Origin: a virus
IMG/VR virus record: IMGVR_UViG_3300050821_000418
Span: 1-37,164 of that record
Direction: 5' to 3' (one strand)
DNA length: 37,164 bases
The notes beneath the pieces are model-generated. The model saw only the letters and a list, made by a program, of their open reading frames with translations, was not told the origin of the DNA and ran no database searches. Position 1 is the first letter of the stretch, and each line of letters opens with the position of its first letter. A program made the position numbers and the translations under genes. Positions 13,850-34,805 of this stretch are shown one piece after another.

Positions 13850-14890
13850 TTATTCCCTTCCAGCTATCGCCCCTCGCACTTTATCACCATACCAAATACA
13901 CATTGTACTTGTATGCATTCCAGGTGCCATAAAGTCAATCTGCTTAACATAAGGACGAATGATATTCAATTGCTTAATTGTAAAGATTGGTCCTTTGGGT
14001 ATTCCGTAGCATTCGTAACTCGCACCTTCATCTGCCCAATCTTTCGGATTATCAATATTACTTTTTACAAGATGTGATCGCATAATCCCATTATCAAAAA
14101 ACACACAATCTTCTTCTGCAAACGGTTCGATTGCATCCAATGCTTTCCAAAAGTCATTAGGTACGGGCCAAGCATTGCATTTACGATCTAATATGCCGCG
14201 AACATCCGGCCAAGGTTCGGCATAAAACTGTGTTCGTAACCAACTTTCATCTTCAAAATAGAAAGTGCAGCTTGATTGACTAAATCCGAATTTGGTTAAC
14301 TTCTTAGGAATTTTGGTCAGAGCTACAGCGAAAGCTTTGGGTAAAGCTATACCATAAGGCAAGTCGATTCCGTGCCAAGCTTCCATTAGCATCTTGCGAT
14401 CCGTGGCTATAATAGACGCCCCTGCCATCAATACAGAAGCGGCAACGACGCTTTGGGCGGTATCGCTAGCCAAAACCGAAACAGCCTCTATAGCCTCTTT
14501 AAAACGATCATCTATTATAGCGAGTGGGGCATCGGGAATTGCAACTGTAAGTAGTTGTGGGTCGATACATGAGACGATGCATTTAAACTTACCGGATTTG
14601 ATCGATAATCGCCCGTTATCTAATTGTGTGATTGATAATTGTTCCCCACACTTAGACAATGCTTGTACGATTAGATCGGCATTTGGTGCGCAAGTTATAT
14701 CCTCGCTGATTTTGCATCCGGCAGCTAAAATACCATTAAATGCTATTGCTGCATTATTTCCTAATAGAATGTGTGTATCACAAACCGGACCTTCGGACTT
14801 GGTAACAAGTTTGCAAAATTTTAATGCATCCAAAAGACCGCTTTGGCTTTCAGTAGCTTTAACATTTGTACGAGATTTGGGACGTGCCAT
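13850..14890 (-). CDS. DNA polymerase sliding clamp (DnaN/beta-like)
   Basis: The 346-aa protein has the layout of a beta-type processivity clamp: repeated beta-rich modules with LLDALKFCKLVTKSEGP near the N-terminus, a second module around CGEQLSITQLDNGRLSIKSG, then LLTVAIPDAP, and an end in MAPGMHTSTMCIWYGDKVRG. It is slightly shorter than bacterial DnaN (about 366 aa), and the C-terminal tail lacks the usual MPMR/MPVR. Phage clamps of this type load on DNA and tether the replicative polymerase, here two genes downstream. I see no strong ribosome site; the 5' leader instead contains a predicted pseudoknot (14918-15025), which may regulate translation. Confidence 0.75.
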   Translation of the reverse strand: MARPKSRTNVKATESQSGLLDALKFCKLVTKSEGPVCDTHILLGNNAAIAFNGILAAGCKISEDITCAPNADLIVQALSKCGEQLSITQLDNGRLSIKSGKFKCIVSCIDPQLLTVAIPDAPLAIIDDRFKEAIEAVSVLASDTAQSVVAASVLMAGASIIATDRKMLMEAWHGIDLPYGIALPKAFAVALTKIPKKLTKFGFSQSSCTFYFEDESWLRTQFYAEPWPDVRGILDRKCNAWPVPNDFWKALDAIEPFAEEDCVFFDNGIMRSHLVKSNIDNPKDWADEGASYECYGIPKGPIFTIKQLNIIRPYVKQIDFMAPGMHTSTMCIWYGDKVRGAIAGRE

Positions 14891-14917
14891 TTTTCATTTA
14901 CATTTTGTTAGAAAGGA

Positions 14918-15025
14918 TAGCGAGAATGGGTAAAGCCCTACATCTGCCAGTTTGTTGCACCATGATGGGAAACCGGAAAAATCATCATGTTGACTATCCC
15001 CATTATGTCCGGTTGACACTCGCTA
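14918..15025 (-). promoter_or_regulatory. Predicted pseudoknotted leader RNA upstream of the clamp gene
   Basis: The 139-base gap between the MazG-like gene and the clamp gene contains four perfect complementary pairs in a nested plus pseudoknot order: TAGCGAG 14918-14924 with CTCGCTA 15019-15025; AATGGG 14925-14930 with CCCATT 14999-15004; CATGATG 14961-14967 with CATCATG 14983-14989; and AACCGGA in that hairpin's loop (14971-14977) with TCCGGTT in the linker (15008-15014). That is 27 base pairs in 108 bases. The operon is read leftward, so the minus-strand RNA is the likely form, ending about 28 bases before the clamp ATG. No known riboswitch class is recognised. Confidence 0.55.
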
Positions 15026-15029
15026 ATTG

Positions 15030-15368
15030 TTATCTATCAGAACCAGAACCTTGTAAAACCCCTCTTATTTGTCTATCTTTTAATTTTGCTAAATTAAGTA
15101 CTGCAATTCCAGAAAGATCACAATTTATTTCTTTAGCAATCATCGCAACATACCAAAGAACATCGCCTAATTCTTTTTGAATTTTACCTATTCTTTCTGT
15201 AGTTAAATTACTACCTTTATCATCACGAATATGTTTACCAATCAATTCAGCAACTTCGCCAGCTTCTCCGTTAAGTTTTAAAGTTAAAAATGATAATGCT
15301 GCAATTTGAGTTTCGTTTGGATAAATTGCAGTCATACTAGCTTTATTTTGATATTCTGTGAATTTCAA
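15030..15368 (-). CDS. MazG-like nucleotide pyrophosphohydrolase
   Basis: The protein has the all-alpha NTP pyrophosphatase signature: LNGEAGEVAELIGKHIRD (E-x-x-E) followed by IQKELGDVLWYVAMIAKEI (E-x-x-D), which binds Mg2+ and cleaves NTPs to NMP and pyrophosphate. Phage MazG homologues adjust nucleotide pools or (p)ppGpp during infection. I choose a TTG start at 15368, giving M-KFTEYQNKASMTAIYPN, the usual N-terminus of the family; it overlaps the previous stop as TTGA and has AAAGGA nine bases upstream. A longer ATG frame from 15395 would add nine residues that overlap the upstream gene. Confidence 0.85.
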   Translation of the reverse strand: MKFTEYQNKASMTAIYPNETQIAALSFLTLKLNGEAGEVAELIGKHIRDDKGSNLTTERIGKIQKELGDVLWYVAMIAKEINCDLSGIAVLNLAKLKDRQIRGVLQGSGSDR

Positions 15369-15586
15369 AACGGAATTTCCTTTACATCTTCCCATTTATC
15401 GCCACAACTGTATGCAATAACTCTAGCTGGTGGACGTTGATTATATAAATTGCACAGTTCGGCTTTCTCATTGAACTTAATACAGTTAAGACAACTTTTA
15501 TATAACGGTTGATCTAAAGCATGTATAGCATTATACAATGCGGTTTGTACGTCATATAAAGCATCTATGCGAAGGGTTGGCTTCAT
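15365..15586 (-). CDS. Small Cys-rich protein, 73 aa
   Basis: It begins MKPTLRIDALYDVQTALYN and contains SCLNCIKFNEKAELC followed by AYSCGDKW, a four-Cys arrangement suited to zinc. The ATG at 15586 forms an ATGA overlap with the previous stop; an ATG five codons upstream would overlap by 19 bases. Its own stop overlaps the MazG-like TTG start. Proteins with this C-x2-C...C...C pattern are frequent in phage early or replication operons and have no assigned function. Confidence 0.7.
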   Translation of the reverse strand: MKPTLRIDALYDVQTALYNAIHALDQPLYKSCLNCIKFNEKAELCNLYNQRPPARVIAYSCGDKWEDVKEIPF

Positions 15587-19216: not shown

Positions 19217-19483
19217 TTAAAACGTTTCCGGTTTTGCGATTGATCGAACCATAGCCATGAAACCTTGTTGCAAGTTTGTACGAGCTATGGCAAGCCAACG
19301 TTTATCGATAGCAGGTATGTCCATTTCAAGAGCGTCGCAAGTTTTGCCAACTTCTGTTGCCAAATCTTTAATCGAGTTAAACGCCTTATCGTATCTTTGC
19401 TTAAAATCGTCAGTCTCCGTTAAGGCTTTCGGTAGCGGCATTCGTTCGGCTGCTATATCTGCCCCGCGCTCTTGTTCTGACAT
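19217..19483 (-). CDS. Acb2/Tad1 hairpin-domain-like protein (candidate anti-CBASS sponge)
   Basis: From the ATG at 19483 (GGAAAGGAAAG just upstream) the product starts MSEQERGADIAAERMPLPKA and ends RWLAIARTNLQQGFMAM, then VRSIAKPETF. The ending R-W-x-A-I-x-x-T-x-L-Q-x-G-x-M-A-x-x-R-x-[IV]-A-x-P matches my memory of Acb2/Tad1-type helical hairpin proteins, which bind cyclic nucleotides and block CBASS or Thoeris defence. The two-helix build (KQRYDKAFNSIKDLATEVG, then the RW helix) also fits. An upstream ATG at 19558 overlaps the previous stop and would add 25 residues. The function is inferred from pattern only. Confidence 0.55.
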   Translation of the reverse strand: MSEQERGADIAAERMPLPKALTETDDFKQRYDKAFNSIKDLATEVGKTCDALEMDIPAIDKRWLAIARTNLQQGFMAMVRSIAKPETF

Positions 19484-19554
19484 CGTTCTTTCCTTTCCTA
19501 CTTTTTCATATTCTATTTTTGATCCGCTTGAAGTGTGAATTAATTTATAATCAT

Positions 19555-20220
19555 TCATTGCATAGCCTTTATCACCAATTTTCCAAAATGCGGTTCCTCA
19601 TATTCAGCTAATGATCCGGTTCTATCTCTCGCCAGCACGTCTATGGTGCCTACACACTGAAAGCTTTTTAATTGCCCCATTCCAGGTATATTGTGAATAC
19701 CCAAATGCAAAATTTCATCGTATAAATATGGAATATCTGCATTAAGTTGTTGTCCGGGCCAATAAGGCTTTCTGAAACCATTTTCTTGTGTGACTTGTTT
19801 GGCGATAAGATATATATGCTTTTCGCGTGTATAATAAAGCGTTCTAAGATGCTTTATGGTTTCGGTTGCCATTTGTCCATAAGCCGCCAAACCGTGTTTA
19901 TTGGATTTAAGAGCACCTTGCAAATAGATATCTGCCATCTGACTTGTACTGTCAACAGCTAGAGTATCAAAATTTTTCGTTTCAGCCGAATTGAAAAACC
20001 ACGAAAAGAAATCCTCGATAGCTTTAATGTCAAAGCCTAACCATGTGGGCACATTTGAATTACGCATTGATAATAAGCCGGGTTCGCAAGCTAACATGAC
20101 GGGACGCGGACAAGTGTTGATTAATGGAGTTTTACCGCTACCAGCATCACCATAGATGATTGATTTTACACCGAACGTTTGTGCAAATTCTTTTGCCGGA
20201 CGAAGTGAACGAATATCCAT
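19555..20220 (-). CDS. Sak4-like ATPase (AAA_24/RecA-like), phage recombination
   Basis: The 221-aa protein has Walker A GDAGSGKT (24-31), a Walker B-like FDTLAVDSTSQM near 84-95, and the typical CEPGLLSM and YLIAKQ strands. Single-domain RecA-like proteins of this type (Sak4, AAA_24) promote single-strand annealing or strand exchange with an SSB partner in phages. Here the SSB-like protein is two genes downstream, and nuclease and helicase follow. It begins one base inside the previous stop and overlaps the next possible ATG by four bases. Confidence 0.85.
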   Translation of the reverse strand: MDIRSLRPAKEFAQTFGVKSIIYGDAGSGKTPLINTCPRPVMLACEPGLLSMRNSNVPTWLGFDIKAIEDFFSWFFNSAETKNFDTLAVDSTSQMADIYLQGALKSNKHGLAAYGQMATETIKHLRTLYYTREKHIYLIAKQVTQENGFRKPYWPGQQLNADIPYLYDEILHLGIHNIPGMGQLKSFQCVGTIDVLARDRTGSLAEYEEPHFGKLVIKAMQ

Positions 20221-22558: not shown

Positions 22559-25003
22559 ATGAATCAATTCAATAACATTCCGCTTGAACTGCGGTTATTG
22601 CCACAATGGATAGTATGGGATAAAGATAAAGTTCCCTGCAATCCATTTACTAAGCAACCGGCTAATGTAAATGATCCTGAAACTTGGACAACTTTTGAAA
22701 ATTGTTATATCAATATTGATAATTATAACGGTATTGGTTTCGTATTTACTGATAATGATCCTTATTTCGGTATTGATCTTGATGACACGCAAGGCGACCA
22801 AATAGCATTAGACCGACAAATTAAAATTTATCGCGAATTTGATAGCTATTCTGAGATTTCACCATCGGGTAAAGGACTGCATATAATTGGTAAAGGAACG
22901 GTTCCGCAAGGTCGTCGTCGTTCCCACATAGAGATATATTCCAGTCAACGCTATTTTACAATGACTGGAAATGTATATCCTTCCGGTCAGGCGAAGCCAA
23001 TTGCAGAACGTCAAAGCATGTTAATGCAATTGTGGAAACAAATGGGAGCGGGAGCGCCAGCTACTTATTTGTATAAAGGGGATGATAATGAACGATTTAC
23101 AGATAATGAAATTATTGAGCAAGGAAGAAAAGCAGTTAATGGAGATAAATTCGAAATATTGTTATCTGGAAAATGGCAGGATAATTATCCGTCTCAATCC
23201 GAAGCAGACTTTGCATTCATTGACATTATTGCTTTTTATACGCAAAATAGGAAACAGATTGAACGTATCTATCGAAATTCTAATCTCGGACAAACCGATA
23301 AAAAGCGACAAAGAAAAGACTATATTACATGGATGATTAACAAATCATTCGATAGAATGTTACCACCGCTTGACTTTGATGGATTTAAAATAGCGTTAGA
23401 AAGTAAGATAAATGAACAGCATAGAAATAATAATAATAGCAGTACCAGTAATAATAGTGCTTCTAATGTTTGCATTCAAATAGCCGATTTGTCATTGAAC
23501 CATATAGCCGGTTCGTCCAATGGTAAGACGGCGGATTTTGATTCCGCTAATAATGGTTCGAGTCCATTACCGGCTTCCACTAGCGTAGCTCAATTGGTAG
23601 AGCCCGTGGCTCATAACCGCTCAGATGCAAGTTCGAATCTTGCCGCTAGTACCATTATTTTGCCACCGGGACTTCTCGGAGAAATCGCCCAATTTATCTA
23701 TGCTGCCGCTCCGCGTCCTGTACCTGAAATCGCATTAGCTGCTGCCATAGGCTTAATGGCGGGTGTCACGGGACGTGCTTACAACATATCAGGCACGGGA
23801 CTTAATCAGTACGTGCTTTTATTAGCTGCCACGGGTTCGGGCAAGGAAGCAATGGCGCTCGGCATAGATCGCCTAATGAATACAATTCGGCTTCAAGTTC
23901 CAACATCAACACACTTTATTGGTCCTTCTGAAATTGCTTCTGGGCAAGCACTCATTAAACATCTTTCAAAAACTTCACAATGCTTTGTTAGTATTCTTGG
24001 TGAATTTGGATTGCGACTTGAAGCTATGTCAAGTCCTACTGCTAATTCAGCCGAAAAAGCTTTAAAGCGAATGCTACTTGATCTTTACAATAAATCCGGT
24101 CATGGACAAATGTTTCGACCGTCTATCTTTGCTGATAGTGATAAAAATATTGCAACAACCGAAAGTCCCGCTTTTTCTATTCTTGGTGAAAGCACACCGG
24201 AACGGTTTTATGGTGCCTTAAATGAAGATATGATTAGCGAAGGATTATTACCTCGCTTTATGTTAATTGAATACAATGGCCCTAGACCGCCATTATCAGA
24301 ATTTCATTTGCAAGCCAAACCTTCATTTGAATTAATAGAACGGTTTGCTTCGCTAGTTGCTTATTGCGAAAGCACAATGCATCAGAAGAAAATAATTAAT
24401 ATTAATTGTGACCAACGATCGGATGGAATGTTAAGGAAGTTTGATAAATTTTGTGATCAACAAATCAATGGAACAAATAAGGAAGTGCTTAGACAACTTT
24501 GGAACCGTGCCCACATTAAAGCTTTGAAGATATCCGGCTTAATGGCTGTTGGATGTAACATGCTTGCTCCGATTGTTATCCCACAATATGTTGATATTGC
24601 AATTAACATGGTGCAGTCGGATATTAGAGCTTTATCGGCTAAGTTTGAGGCCGGTGAAATTGGATTGTCAACTAATGAGTCCAAACAGCTTAAAGAATTA
24701 TTGCGTATAATTAGAGAATTTGTTGTTAAGGATTGGAGTGAAATATTAAAGTATTTTGATAATGAAAAATTACATAAGGAGAAGATAATTCCTTATGCAT
24801 ATTTAAGTCGTCGCTTGATTGCAACATCGGTTTTTCGTACTGATAAGGTTGGAGCTACAAACGCAATTAAAAGAACTATACAAATTATGATTGAAAGTGA
24901 TAAGATAAGAGAGATTGGTAAGCAAGAATTGGCGTCTAAGTTCGGTACAACTCAAAGATGTTTTATCGTGAGCAATCCAGCACAATTATTTGAAAAATTA
25001 TAA
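22559..25003 (+). CDS. PrimPol-like + DUF3987 ATPase replication protein with embedded tRNAs
   Basis: The N-terminal domain (about 1-270) is an archaeo-eukaryotic-type primase/polymerase fold: QWIVWDKDKVPCNPFTKQPA, the metal site GIDLDD (D73, D75), SPSGKGLHI (H108) and HIEIYSSQRYFTMTG, then a helix bundle (KRQRKDYITWMINKSF) as in NrS-1-like polymerases. An Asn/Ser-rich linker (285-370) follows. The C-terminal DUF3987 region has Walker A ATGSGKE (424-430) and a Walker B-like VSILGEFG (E481) and probably is the helicase-type ATPase. The protein likely primes and unwinds DNA. Two complete tRNA genes (23506-23654) form residues 316-366 of the linker without breaking the frame. It ends six bases inside the opposing endonuclease VII gene. 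Confidence 0.85.
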   Translation: MNQFNNIPLELRLLPQWIVWDKDKVPCNPFTKQPANVNDPETWTTFENCYINIDNYNGIGFVFTDNDPYFGIDLDDTQGDQIALDRQIKIYREFDSYSEISPSGKGLHIIGKGTVPQGRRRSHIEIYSSQRYFTMTGNVYPSGQAKPIAERQSMLMQLWKQMGAGAPATYLYKGDDNERFTDNEIIEQGRKAVNGDKFEILLSGKWQDNYPSQSEADFAFIDIIAFYTQNRKQIERIYRNSNLGQTDKKRQRKDYITWMINKSFDRMLPPLDFDGFKIALESKINEQHRNNNNSSTSNNSASNVCIQIADLSLNHIAGSSNGKTADFDSANNGSSPLPASTSVAQLVEPVAHNRSDASSNLAASTIILPPGLLGEIAQFIYAAAPRPVPEIALAAAIGLMAGVTGRAYNISGTGLNQYVLLLAATGSGKEAMALGIDRLMNTIRLQVPTSTHFIGPSEIASGQALIKHLSKTSQCFVSILGEFGLRLEAMSSPTANSAEKALKRMLLDLYNKSGHGQMFRPSIFADSDKNIATTESPAFSILGESTPERFYGALNEDMISEGLLPRFMLIEYNGPRPPLSEFHLQAKPSFELIERFASLVAYCESTMHQKKIININCDQRSDGMLRKFDKFCDQQINGTNKEVLRQLWNRAHIKALKISGLMAVGCNMLAPIVIPQYVDIAINMVQSDIRALSAKFEAGEIGLSTNESKQLKELLRIIREFVVKDWSEILKYFDNEKLHKEKIIPYAYLSRRLIATSVFRTDKVGATNAIKRTIQIMIESDKIREIGKQELASKFGTTQRCFIVSNPAQLFEKL
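23506..23579 (+). tRNA. tRNA-Gln (UUG), inside the PrimPol-DUF3987 ORF
   Basis: All parts are present: acceptor AGCCGGT/ACCGGCT (7 perfect pairs), D arm GTC/GAC with a GG loop, anticodon stem GCGGA/TCCGC with loop TTTTGAT (anticodon TTG at 23538-23540), T arm AATGG-TTCGAGT-CCATT, discriminator T and an encoded CCA. It lies in sense orientation in the linker region of a long ORF. It would read CAA, the main Gln codon in these genes. The final A is shared with the next tRNA. Confidence 0.92.
23579..23654 (+). tRNA. tRNA-Met (CAU) (or tRNA-Ile2), inside the same ORF
   Basis: Acceptor ACTAGCG/CGCTAGT (7 perfect pairs), D arm GCTC/GAGC with AATTGGTA loop, anticodon loop CTCATAA (CAT at 23612-23614), T arm GCAAG-TTCGAAT-CTTGC, discriminator A and encoded CCA. 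The anticodon stem has four pairs plus a C-T mismatch at its base. Overall it looks like elongator tRNA-Met; with lysidine at position 34 it would read AUA as Ile. Its first base is the last A of the tRNA-Gln CCA, so the pair is fused with no spacer. Confidence 0.9.
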
Positions 25004-34728: not shown

Positions 34729-34805
34729 GCGCTCGTATGCTAATCGGTAACGCAAAGAAACTTAAAATTTCTTGTTTCTCAGTTCAAATCTGAGCGAGCG
34801 CACCA
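34729..34805 (+). tRNA. tRNA with UAA anticodon (Leu, class I shape)
   Basis: Acceptor GCGCTCG/CGAGCGC, D arm with AATCGGTAA loop (three good pairs), anticodon stem AGAAA/TTTCT with loop CTTAAAA (TAA at 34763-34765), T arm CTCAG-TTCAAAT-CTGAG, discriminator A and encoded CCA. It should read UUA, the most used Leu codon here. The variable loop is only five bases, whereas bacterial tRNA-Leu normally has a long arm, so its charging identity is uncertain. Confidence 0.88.

Follow-up and report, generated by a model that had tools for sequence, protein, structure and literature searches.

Uncultivated phages carry a putative trans-acting structured RNA of the Atu_At1 family with a covarying pseudoknot

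INTRODUCTION

GOLLD and ROOL are phage noncoding RNAs of several hundred nucleotides that lie near tRNA arrays, and in type III toxin-antitoxin RNAs, pseudoknot repeats stand in tandem before a gene for an endoribonuclease toxin. Closest to the locus described here is Atu_At1 (RF02496, "Rhizobiales sRNA"), a family known among soil bacteria and of unknown function, for which Wilms 2012 is presumably the source paper. The name AT1 probably denotes the first sRNA of plasmid pAt, and an sRNA termed "L4" is attributed to Wilms 2012 in excerpts of PMC7486931. Searches of an incomplete literature collection turned up no publication on either name, and no mention of a pseudoknot, sigma-EcfG control, or phage members of this family.

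GsrN of Caulobacter is an sRNA dependent on sigma-T/EcfG; its homologues, identified through their location close to ecfG/phyR, have a 5' loop that is C-rich and exposed (excerpts of PMC5869019). The general-stress promoter is described as GGAAC-N16-CGTT with a flexible -10 box; GCAAC is one of the two commonest -35 boxes, and ku-ligD belongs to the EcfG regulon (excerpts of PMC7083833). The promoter is also given as GGAAC-N17-20-GTT (excerpts of PMC6599016).

Here we analyze one window, the whole of a 37,164-base virus record (38.7% GC), in which the original prediction placed four perfect helices in one compact pseudoknot before a sliding-clamp gene, offering a riboswitch, an autoregulatory site for clamp or polymerase protein, or a small RNA as its meaning.

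MATERIALS AND METHODS

Two alignments were used for covariation. A1 contains 81 sequences (55 genome-search loci, 25 fetched regions, and the window) collected with the Rfam model, which has no pseudoknot pairing; all 81 rows were kept, some being incomplete or misaligned at the 3' end (e.g., L163, L200, L202, and L206). The phage set comprises 39 loci (including the window, L005, and L006) with 31 distinct elements, and A2 is the phage-only alignment of 31 distinct rows, which took in 32 of the 39 loci; those excluded (L229, L242, L243, L244, L261, L267, and L288) have elements identical to included ones. The pattern behind loci L017 to L133 demands the pseudoknot, and these loci were set aside in pseudoknot testing. 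IMG/VR pattern scans were run without required pseudoknot letters, and our own model R1 matches 22 of the first 25 viral contigs (L223, L227, and L236 are the exceptions) and then 14 of 41 new loci. Neighbor-gene clusters were built with a simple open reading frame caller, and 20 plasmid regions were fetched, 13 of them annotated there and 7 unannotated. Promoter counts draw on 152 bacterial elements after de-duplication, 150 of which have enough upstream sequence, and close relatives remain among them.

RESULTS

The RNA occupies the gap between genes for a MazG-like pyrophosphohydrolase and the sliding clamp, all three on the minus strand (Table 1). The MazG-like stop codon is 4 nt from P1, and the end of P1 is 27 nt from the clamp start codon; the clamp gene had been said to lack a clear ribosome site, and none is clear in this 27-nt gap. 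A DNA polymerase gene is next, downstream of the clamp, and genes for a helicase, a Cas4-like exonuclease, and SSB lie upstream. The cmscan match covers the full RF02496 model (positions 1 to 108) above the 60-bit cut-off, with no mismatch flagged for the Rfam helices other than the 5' hairpin. Of the three meanings offered, small RNA is the one that finds support. R1 scores 104.8 bits at 14913-15034, the window being one row of R1's own building set. There is a single Atu_At1-type RNA in the window. A sigma-70 promoter scan of the window returned 1 promoter versus 2.4 in shuffles, with no promoter visible for the RNA itself, and a scan of the window found no terminator for it; a discrete RNA would thus need processing.

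The window also codes for a 113-amino-acid protein with an Acb2/Tad1 hairpin domain (19217-19558, minus strand; PF24729, E 9e-14), a family of phage sponges for defense signaling nucleotides. It carries three tRNA genes on the plus strand (23506-23654 and 34729-34805), Gln(TTG) and Met(CAT) being back to back, plus Leu(TAA).

Table 1. Coordinates of the RNA, its helices, and the adjoining genes in the window
Feature	Coordinates	Strand	Evidence or pairing
Structured RNA, RF02496 (Atu_At1) member	15028-14919	minus	cmscan 87.3 bits, cut-off 60, E 1.2e-13
Gene for MazG-like pyrophosphohydrolase, directly upstream of the RNA	15030-15395	minus	PF03819 E 6e-9; phrog_229 E 1e-32
Phage DNA polymerase processivity factor (sliding clamp)	13850-14890	minus	phrog_947 E 2e-51
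P1, 5' strand, UAGCGAG	15019-15025	minus	pairs with 14918-14924
P1, 3' strand, CUCGCUA	14918-14924	minus	changes on both sides in all 8 P1 columns
Pseudoknot, 5' strand, AACCGGA	15008-15014	minus	pairs with 14971-14977
Pseudoknot, 3' strand, UCCGGUU, inside P4 loop	14971-14977	minus	covariation in A1 and A2
P3, 5' strand, AAUGGG	14999-15004	minus	pairs with 14925-14930
P3, 3' strand, CCCAUU	14925-14930	minus	covariation alignment
P3b, 5' strand	14992-14995	minus	96.8% of cells paired; double changes in 4/4 pairs
P3b, 3' strand	14934-14937	minus	pairs with 14992-14995
P4 hairpin, 5' strand, CAUGAUG	14983-14989	minus	pairs with 14961-14967
P4 hairpin, 3' strand, CAUCAUG	14961-14967	minus	covariation alignment
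P5, 3-bp hairpin with conserved CAAC(G/A)AA-type loop	14957-14960 with 14946-14948	minus	paired 90.9% (A1), 100% (A2)

All four predicted helices are present in the minus-strand RNA and backed by covariation, and two shorter helices absent from the original prediction, P3b and P5, are also supported; 34 of the 35 consensus pairs are intact in the window copy. The strand had been left open and is minus, the same as that of the clamp gene, because the Rfam match is on that strand and because paired columns read that way hold more G-U than A-C cells (147 versus 61 in A1; 49 versus 22 in A2). Shuffled sequences had been named as a refuting test, and none of 20,000 dinucleotide shuffles reproduced this layout of perfect helices (6, 6, 7, and 7 bp). 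The nested folding energy is unremarkable (z -1.16 for the minus strand and -1.62 for the plus strand) and is not useful as evidence.

Covariation across relatives is the decisive evidence for the pseudoknot, and judged from these alignments we regard the pairing as real. The full structure including the pseudoknot is 91.5% paired in A1, where slid controls reach 47%, and the compensatory changes proposed as a check are abundant, with double changes in 31 of the 35 pairs in A1 and likewise in A2. The predicted 7-bp pairing between hairpin loop and linker is paired in 98.6% of A1, with double changes at five of the seven pairs and 28 double-change cells versus 1.8 in shuffles, and its covariation exceeds the shuffled value in both alignments (0.203 versus 0.066 in A1; 0.595 versus 0.142 in A2). 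Pairing reaches 99.5% in A2, which holds 14 different pseudoknot sequences; variants of the pairing include AACCGGA/UCCGGUU, AAGCGGA/UCCGCUU, AACCAGA/UCUGGUU, and AACGGGA/UCCCGUU. The 5' hairpin of the Rfam model (UGUC/GACA) overlaps the pseudoknot and can form in the window. Unlike the pseudoknot, it appears hardly supported by covariation, which is near the shuffled level (double-change cells, 3 versus 0.7; pair types, 6 versus 5.6). We note that one bacterial sub-branch (L159, L175, L177, L209, L216, and L217) has the pseudoknot AAGCGGA/UCCGCUU, with one near-variant.

Among the phage loci scanned, 14 of 15 score above the RF02496 cut-off, and each of 12 phage records has one copy of the RNA. 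The settings are varied. The copy lies directly behind tRNA-Met in L245, L232, and L244 and beside an opposite-strand tRNA-Ser in L226 and L229, and in L253, L260, and their kin it lies between ribonucleotide reductase and DNA polymerase genes and is followed by a terminator. Other copies are behind a resolvase or Cas4-like exonuclease gene or ahead of a dNMP kinase, exonuclease, or terminase gene. A terminator occurs within 110 nt after 8 of 31 phage copies (controls 1/30, 0/27, and 0/31). L253, L260, L265, L282, L285, and L287 are related phages sharing the order ribonucleotide reductase, RNA, terminator, and DNA polymerase, in which P3 changes by compensation. In the stored 14.6 kb of viral contig L226, one strand bears more than 20 tRNA genes, and the RNA lies among these on the other. 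BLAST against 50,697 named phages gave nothing above chance level for the window and no match for L019 or five phage-type queries, so that IMG/VR contigs are the sole source of the phage branch in this analysis.

Outside viruses, most relatives come from Rhizobiales; the window itself is a virus record. A pattern scan of species genomes gave at least 117 stretches, some of them spurious, and those listed are mostly from Rhizobium, Shinella, Devosia, Ensifer, Phyllobacterium, and Kaistia, with some from Rhodobacteraceae. R1 kept 82 matches in 96 of the pattern loci and 20 in the other 21 (L113 to L132, with none in L133), and the genomes or records traced from such loci, 30 in all, have one to four copies each, usually one. 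An order-wide search with RF02496 was positive in 37 of 297 genomes; a class-wide search with R1 found 2 of 385, a weak negative with only nine candidates scored per genome.

The bacterial copies are frequently preceded by a general-stress promoter motif. A sigma-EcfG-type sequence (GGAAC-N15-18-N[ACG]TT) is present in the 46 nt before the element in 97 of 150 copies, and control windows contain it rarely, both upstream (1/147, 0/146, 0/144, 0/143, and 2/141) and downstream (2/151, 1/150, 6/149, and 1/149). The spacer is 16 nt in 83 of the 97 and 17 nt in 14, in line with the published EcfG promoters, and allowing GCAAC as the -35 box raises the count to 116 of 150. These promoters would place the transcript start near P1, and sigma-EcfG is likely the regulator of the bacterial copies. 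By the pattern used, the motif is found in none of the 31 phage copies, including the window; L237 has GAAAC-N16-CGTT upstream and may be bacterial DNA. Simple terminators follow within 110 nt in 10 of 150 bacterial copies (controls 0/146, 1/137, and 3/147), and some Shinella copies are promoter-RNA-terminator units.

Among the recurrent bacterial neighbors are methylpurine-DNA glycosylase, LigD, a short-chain dehydrogenase, and a protein of the exo/endonuclease family; a desaturase, a porin, glutamyl-tRNA synthetase, and a citrate transporter also occur. Of the 13 annotated plasmid records, 8 have the next gene on the same strand, and in four of these eight it is ligD, about 50 to 60 nt away; the pAtC58 copy is about 58 nt upstream of ligD. 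In the other five, the next gene is on the opposite strand (VapC, PQQ dehydrogenase, NUDIX, galactarate dehydratase, and AbiEii), and the element is thus not always a leader. In rhizobial plasmids L169, L293, and L296, copies are near genes for an AbiEi antitoxin, a GSU2403-type nucleotidyltransferase, and an AbiEii toxin, which may be chance.

DISCUSSION

The RNA in the window is probably a phage-borne small RNA of the Atu_At1 family that most likely acts in trans, and the best reading of the phage set is that many uncultivated phages carry an independent, putative trans-acting structured RNA of this known family. The fold and loops are kept while the helices, neighbors, promoters, and positions vary, which argues that the RNA acts as a molecule and not as a one-gene switch. 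In bacteria, the stress sigma factor would make a transcript starting near the base of P1, which may fold into a closed particle that resists RNases. The phage RNA would instead be transcribed within a replication operon (MazG, clamp, and polymerase) and then excised by RNases of the host. Conserved residues in single-stranded parts (GUC-AA, GAAC, UUUUUC, UUUC, CAACGAA, and GGCAG) could be the surface that a conserved host protein or RNP recognizes, and the phage copy may engage or titrate this putative partner during infection. We found no partner or target, and several observations count against trans action: the lack of a visible promoter or terminator for the RNA in the window, the same-strand next gene in 8 of 13 annotated plasmid contexts (ligD close downstream in four), which also fits a leader, and the paucity of bacterial copies (10 of 150) with a simple terminator soon after.

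The main rival, which we consider doubtful, is a structured mRNA element, in which a closed pseudoknot in untranslated regions would protect or punctuate mRNA against host RNases, within the 5' leader of stress mRNAs or, in phages, where genes end. This agrees with the transcript start near P1, with several phage copies that directly follow a gene and precede a terminator (L253, L260, L263, L265, L282, L285, L287, and L224), and with the window copy between two genes of one operon, but an element of this kind does not readily account for opposite-strand next genes, a tRNA in front, or standalone units with their own promoter and terminator, and the loops are probably more conserved than a plain barrier needs. 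Control of the clamp is less probable still. A cis-acting leader, whether the riboswitch or the protein-binding autoregulatory site first proposed, would control clamp translation from its same-strand position close before the start codon, with no clear ribosome site between, yet the RNA is near the clamp gene in none of nine viral clamp relatives (46 to 70% identity), six of whose records have no copy anywhere. None of the other 38 viral RNA loci is among these nine relatives (their flanks were only partly tested for a clamp gene), and the genes tested beside other phage copies are those for ribonucleotide reductase, DNA polymerase, exonuclease, terminase, resolvase, and dNMP kinase.

More broadly, we found no stable link to one same-strand downstream gene or pathway, given the clamp relatives and the opposite-strand genes of the annotated plasmids. 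With copies adjoining unrelated genes, a tRNA, or a terminator, both a riboswitch and an autoregulatory site for clamp or polymerase protein are unlikely, and of all the readings only a nonfunctional relic fits the evidence worse than clamp control. Such a relic, a host sRNA gene acquired accidentally and no longer functional in the phage, would fit the lack of a stress promoter, but it is highly improbable given the nearly complete set of consensus pairs in a 39% GC genome and the 14 different, nearly always complementary phage pseudoknots, which imply continued selection.

Returning to trans action, we tentatively suggest a more specific role, in which phage copies of a host general-stress RNA, no longer behind the stress promoter but within phage operons, might mimic or soak up its partner during infection, so that the phage RNA would be a decoy or an agonist for stress and DNA-repair responses of alphaproteobacteria. 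The present analysis gives an orphan Rfam family a revised fold, in which a covarying pseudoknot probably replaces the 5' hairpin, a likely regulator (sigma-EcfG) of its bacterial copies, and a phage branch comprising 31 distinct sequences. That phages keep a host stress RNA under strong structural selection draws attention to a host process that would be worth manipulating. Because the phage copies are so varied in sequence, experiments on the fold, on the partner (by pull-down), and on mutants should be easy to design.

No tested feature points to a 6S-like RNA, a tRNA-like element, a self-cleaving ribozyme, or a put/EAR antitermination RNA, and a type III toxin-antitoxin RNA does not fit the single copy and the clamp as next gene. 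Like GOLLD and ROOL, the RNA is phage carried, structured, of unknown function, and sometimes beside tRNA genes, but those RNAs are longer, at several hundred nucleotides, and neither gave an Rfam match among the sequences scanned here. The window RNA shares P1, P3, P3b, P4, and P5 with RF02496, whereas the structure line of that model has the 5' hairpin in place of the pseudoknot favored by covariation; the window copy is carried by a phage and, unlike most bacterial members, is without a stress promoter. The nearest functional comparison, though by analogy and not as a shown relative, is GsrN: by their promoter motif, bacterial Atu_At1 copies would similarly be sRNAs under the alphaproteobacterial general-stress sigma factor, but they differ from it in their covarying pseudoknot and in their neighbors.
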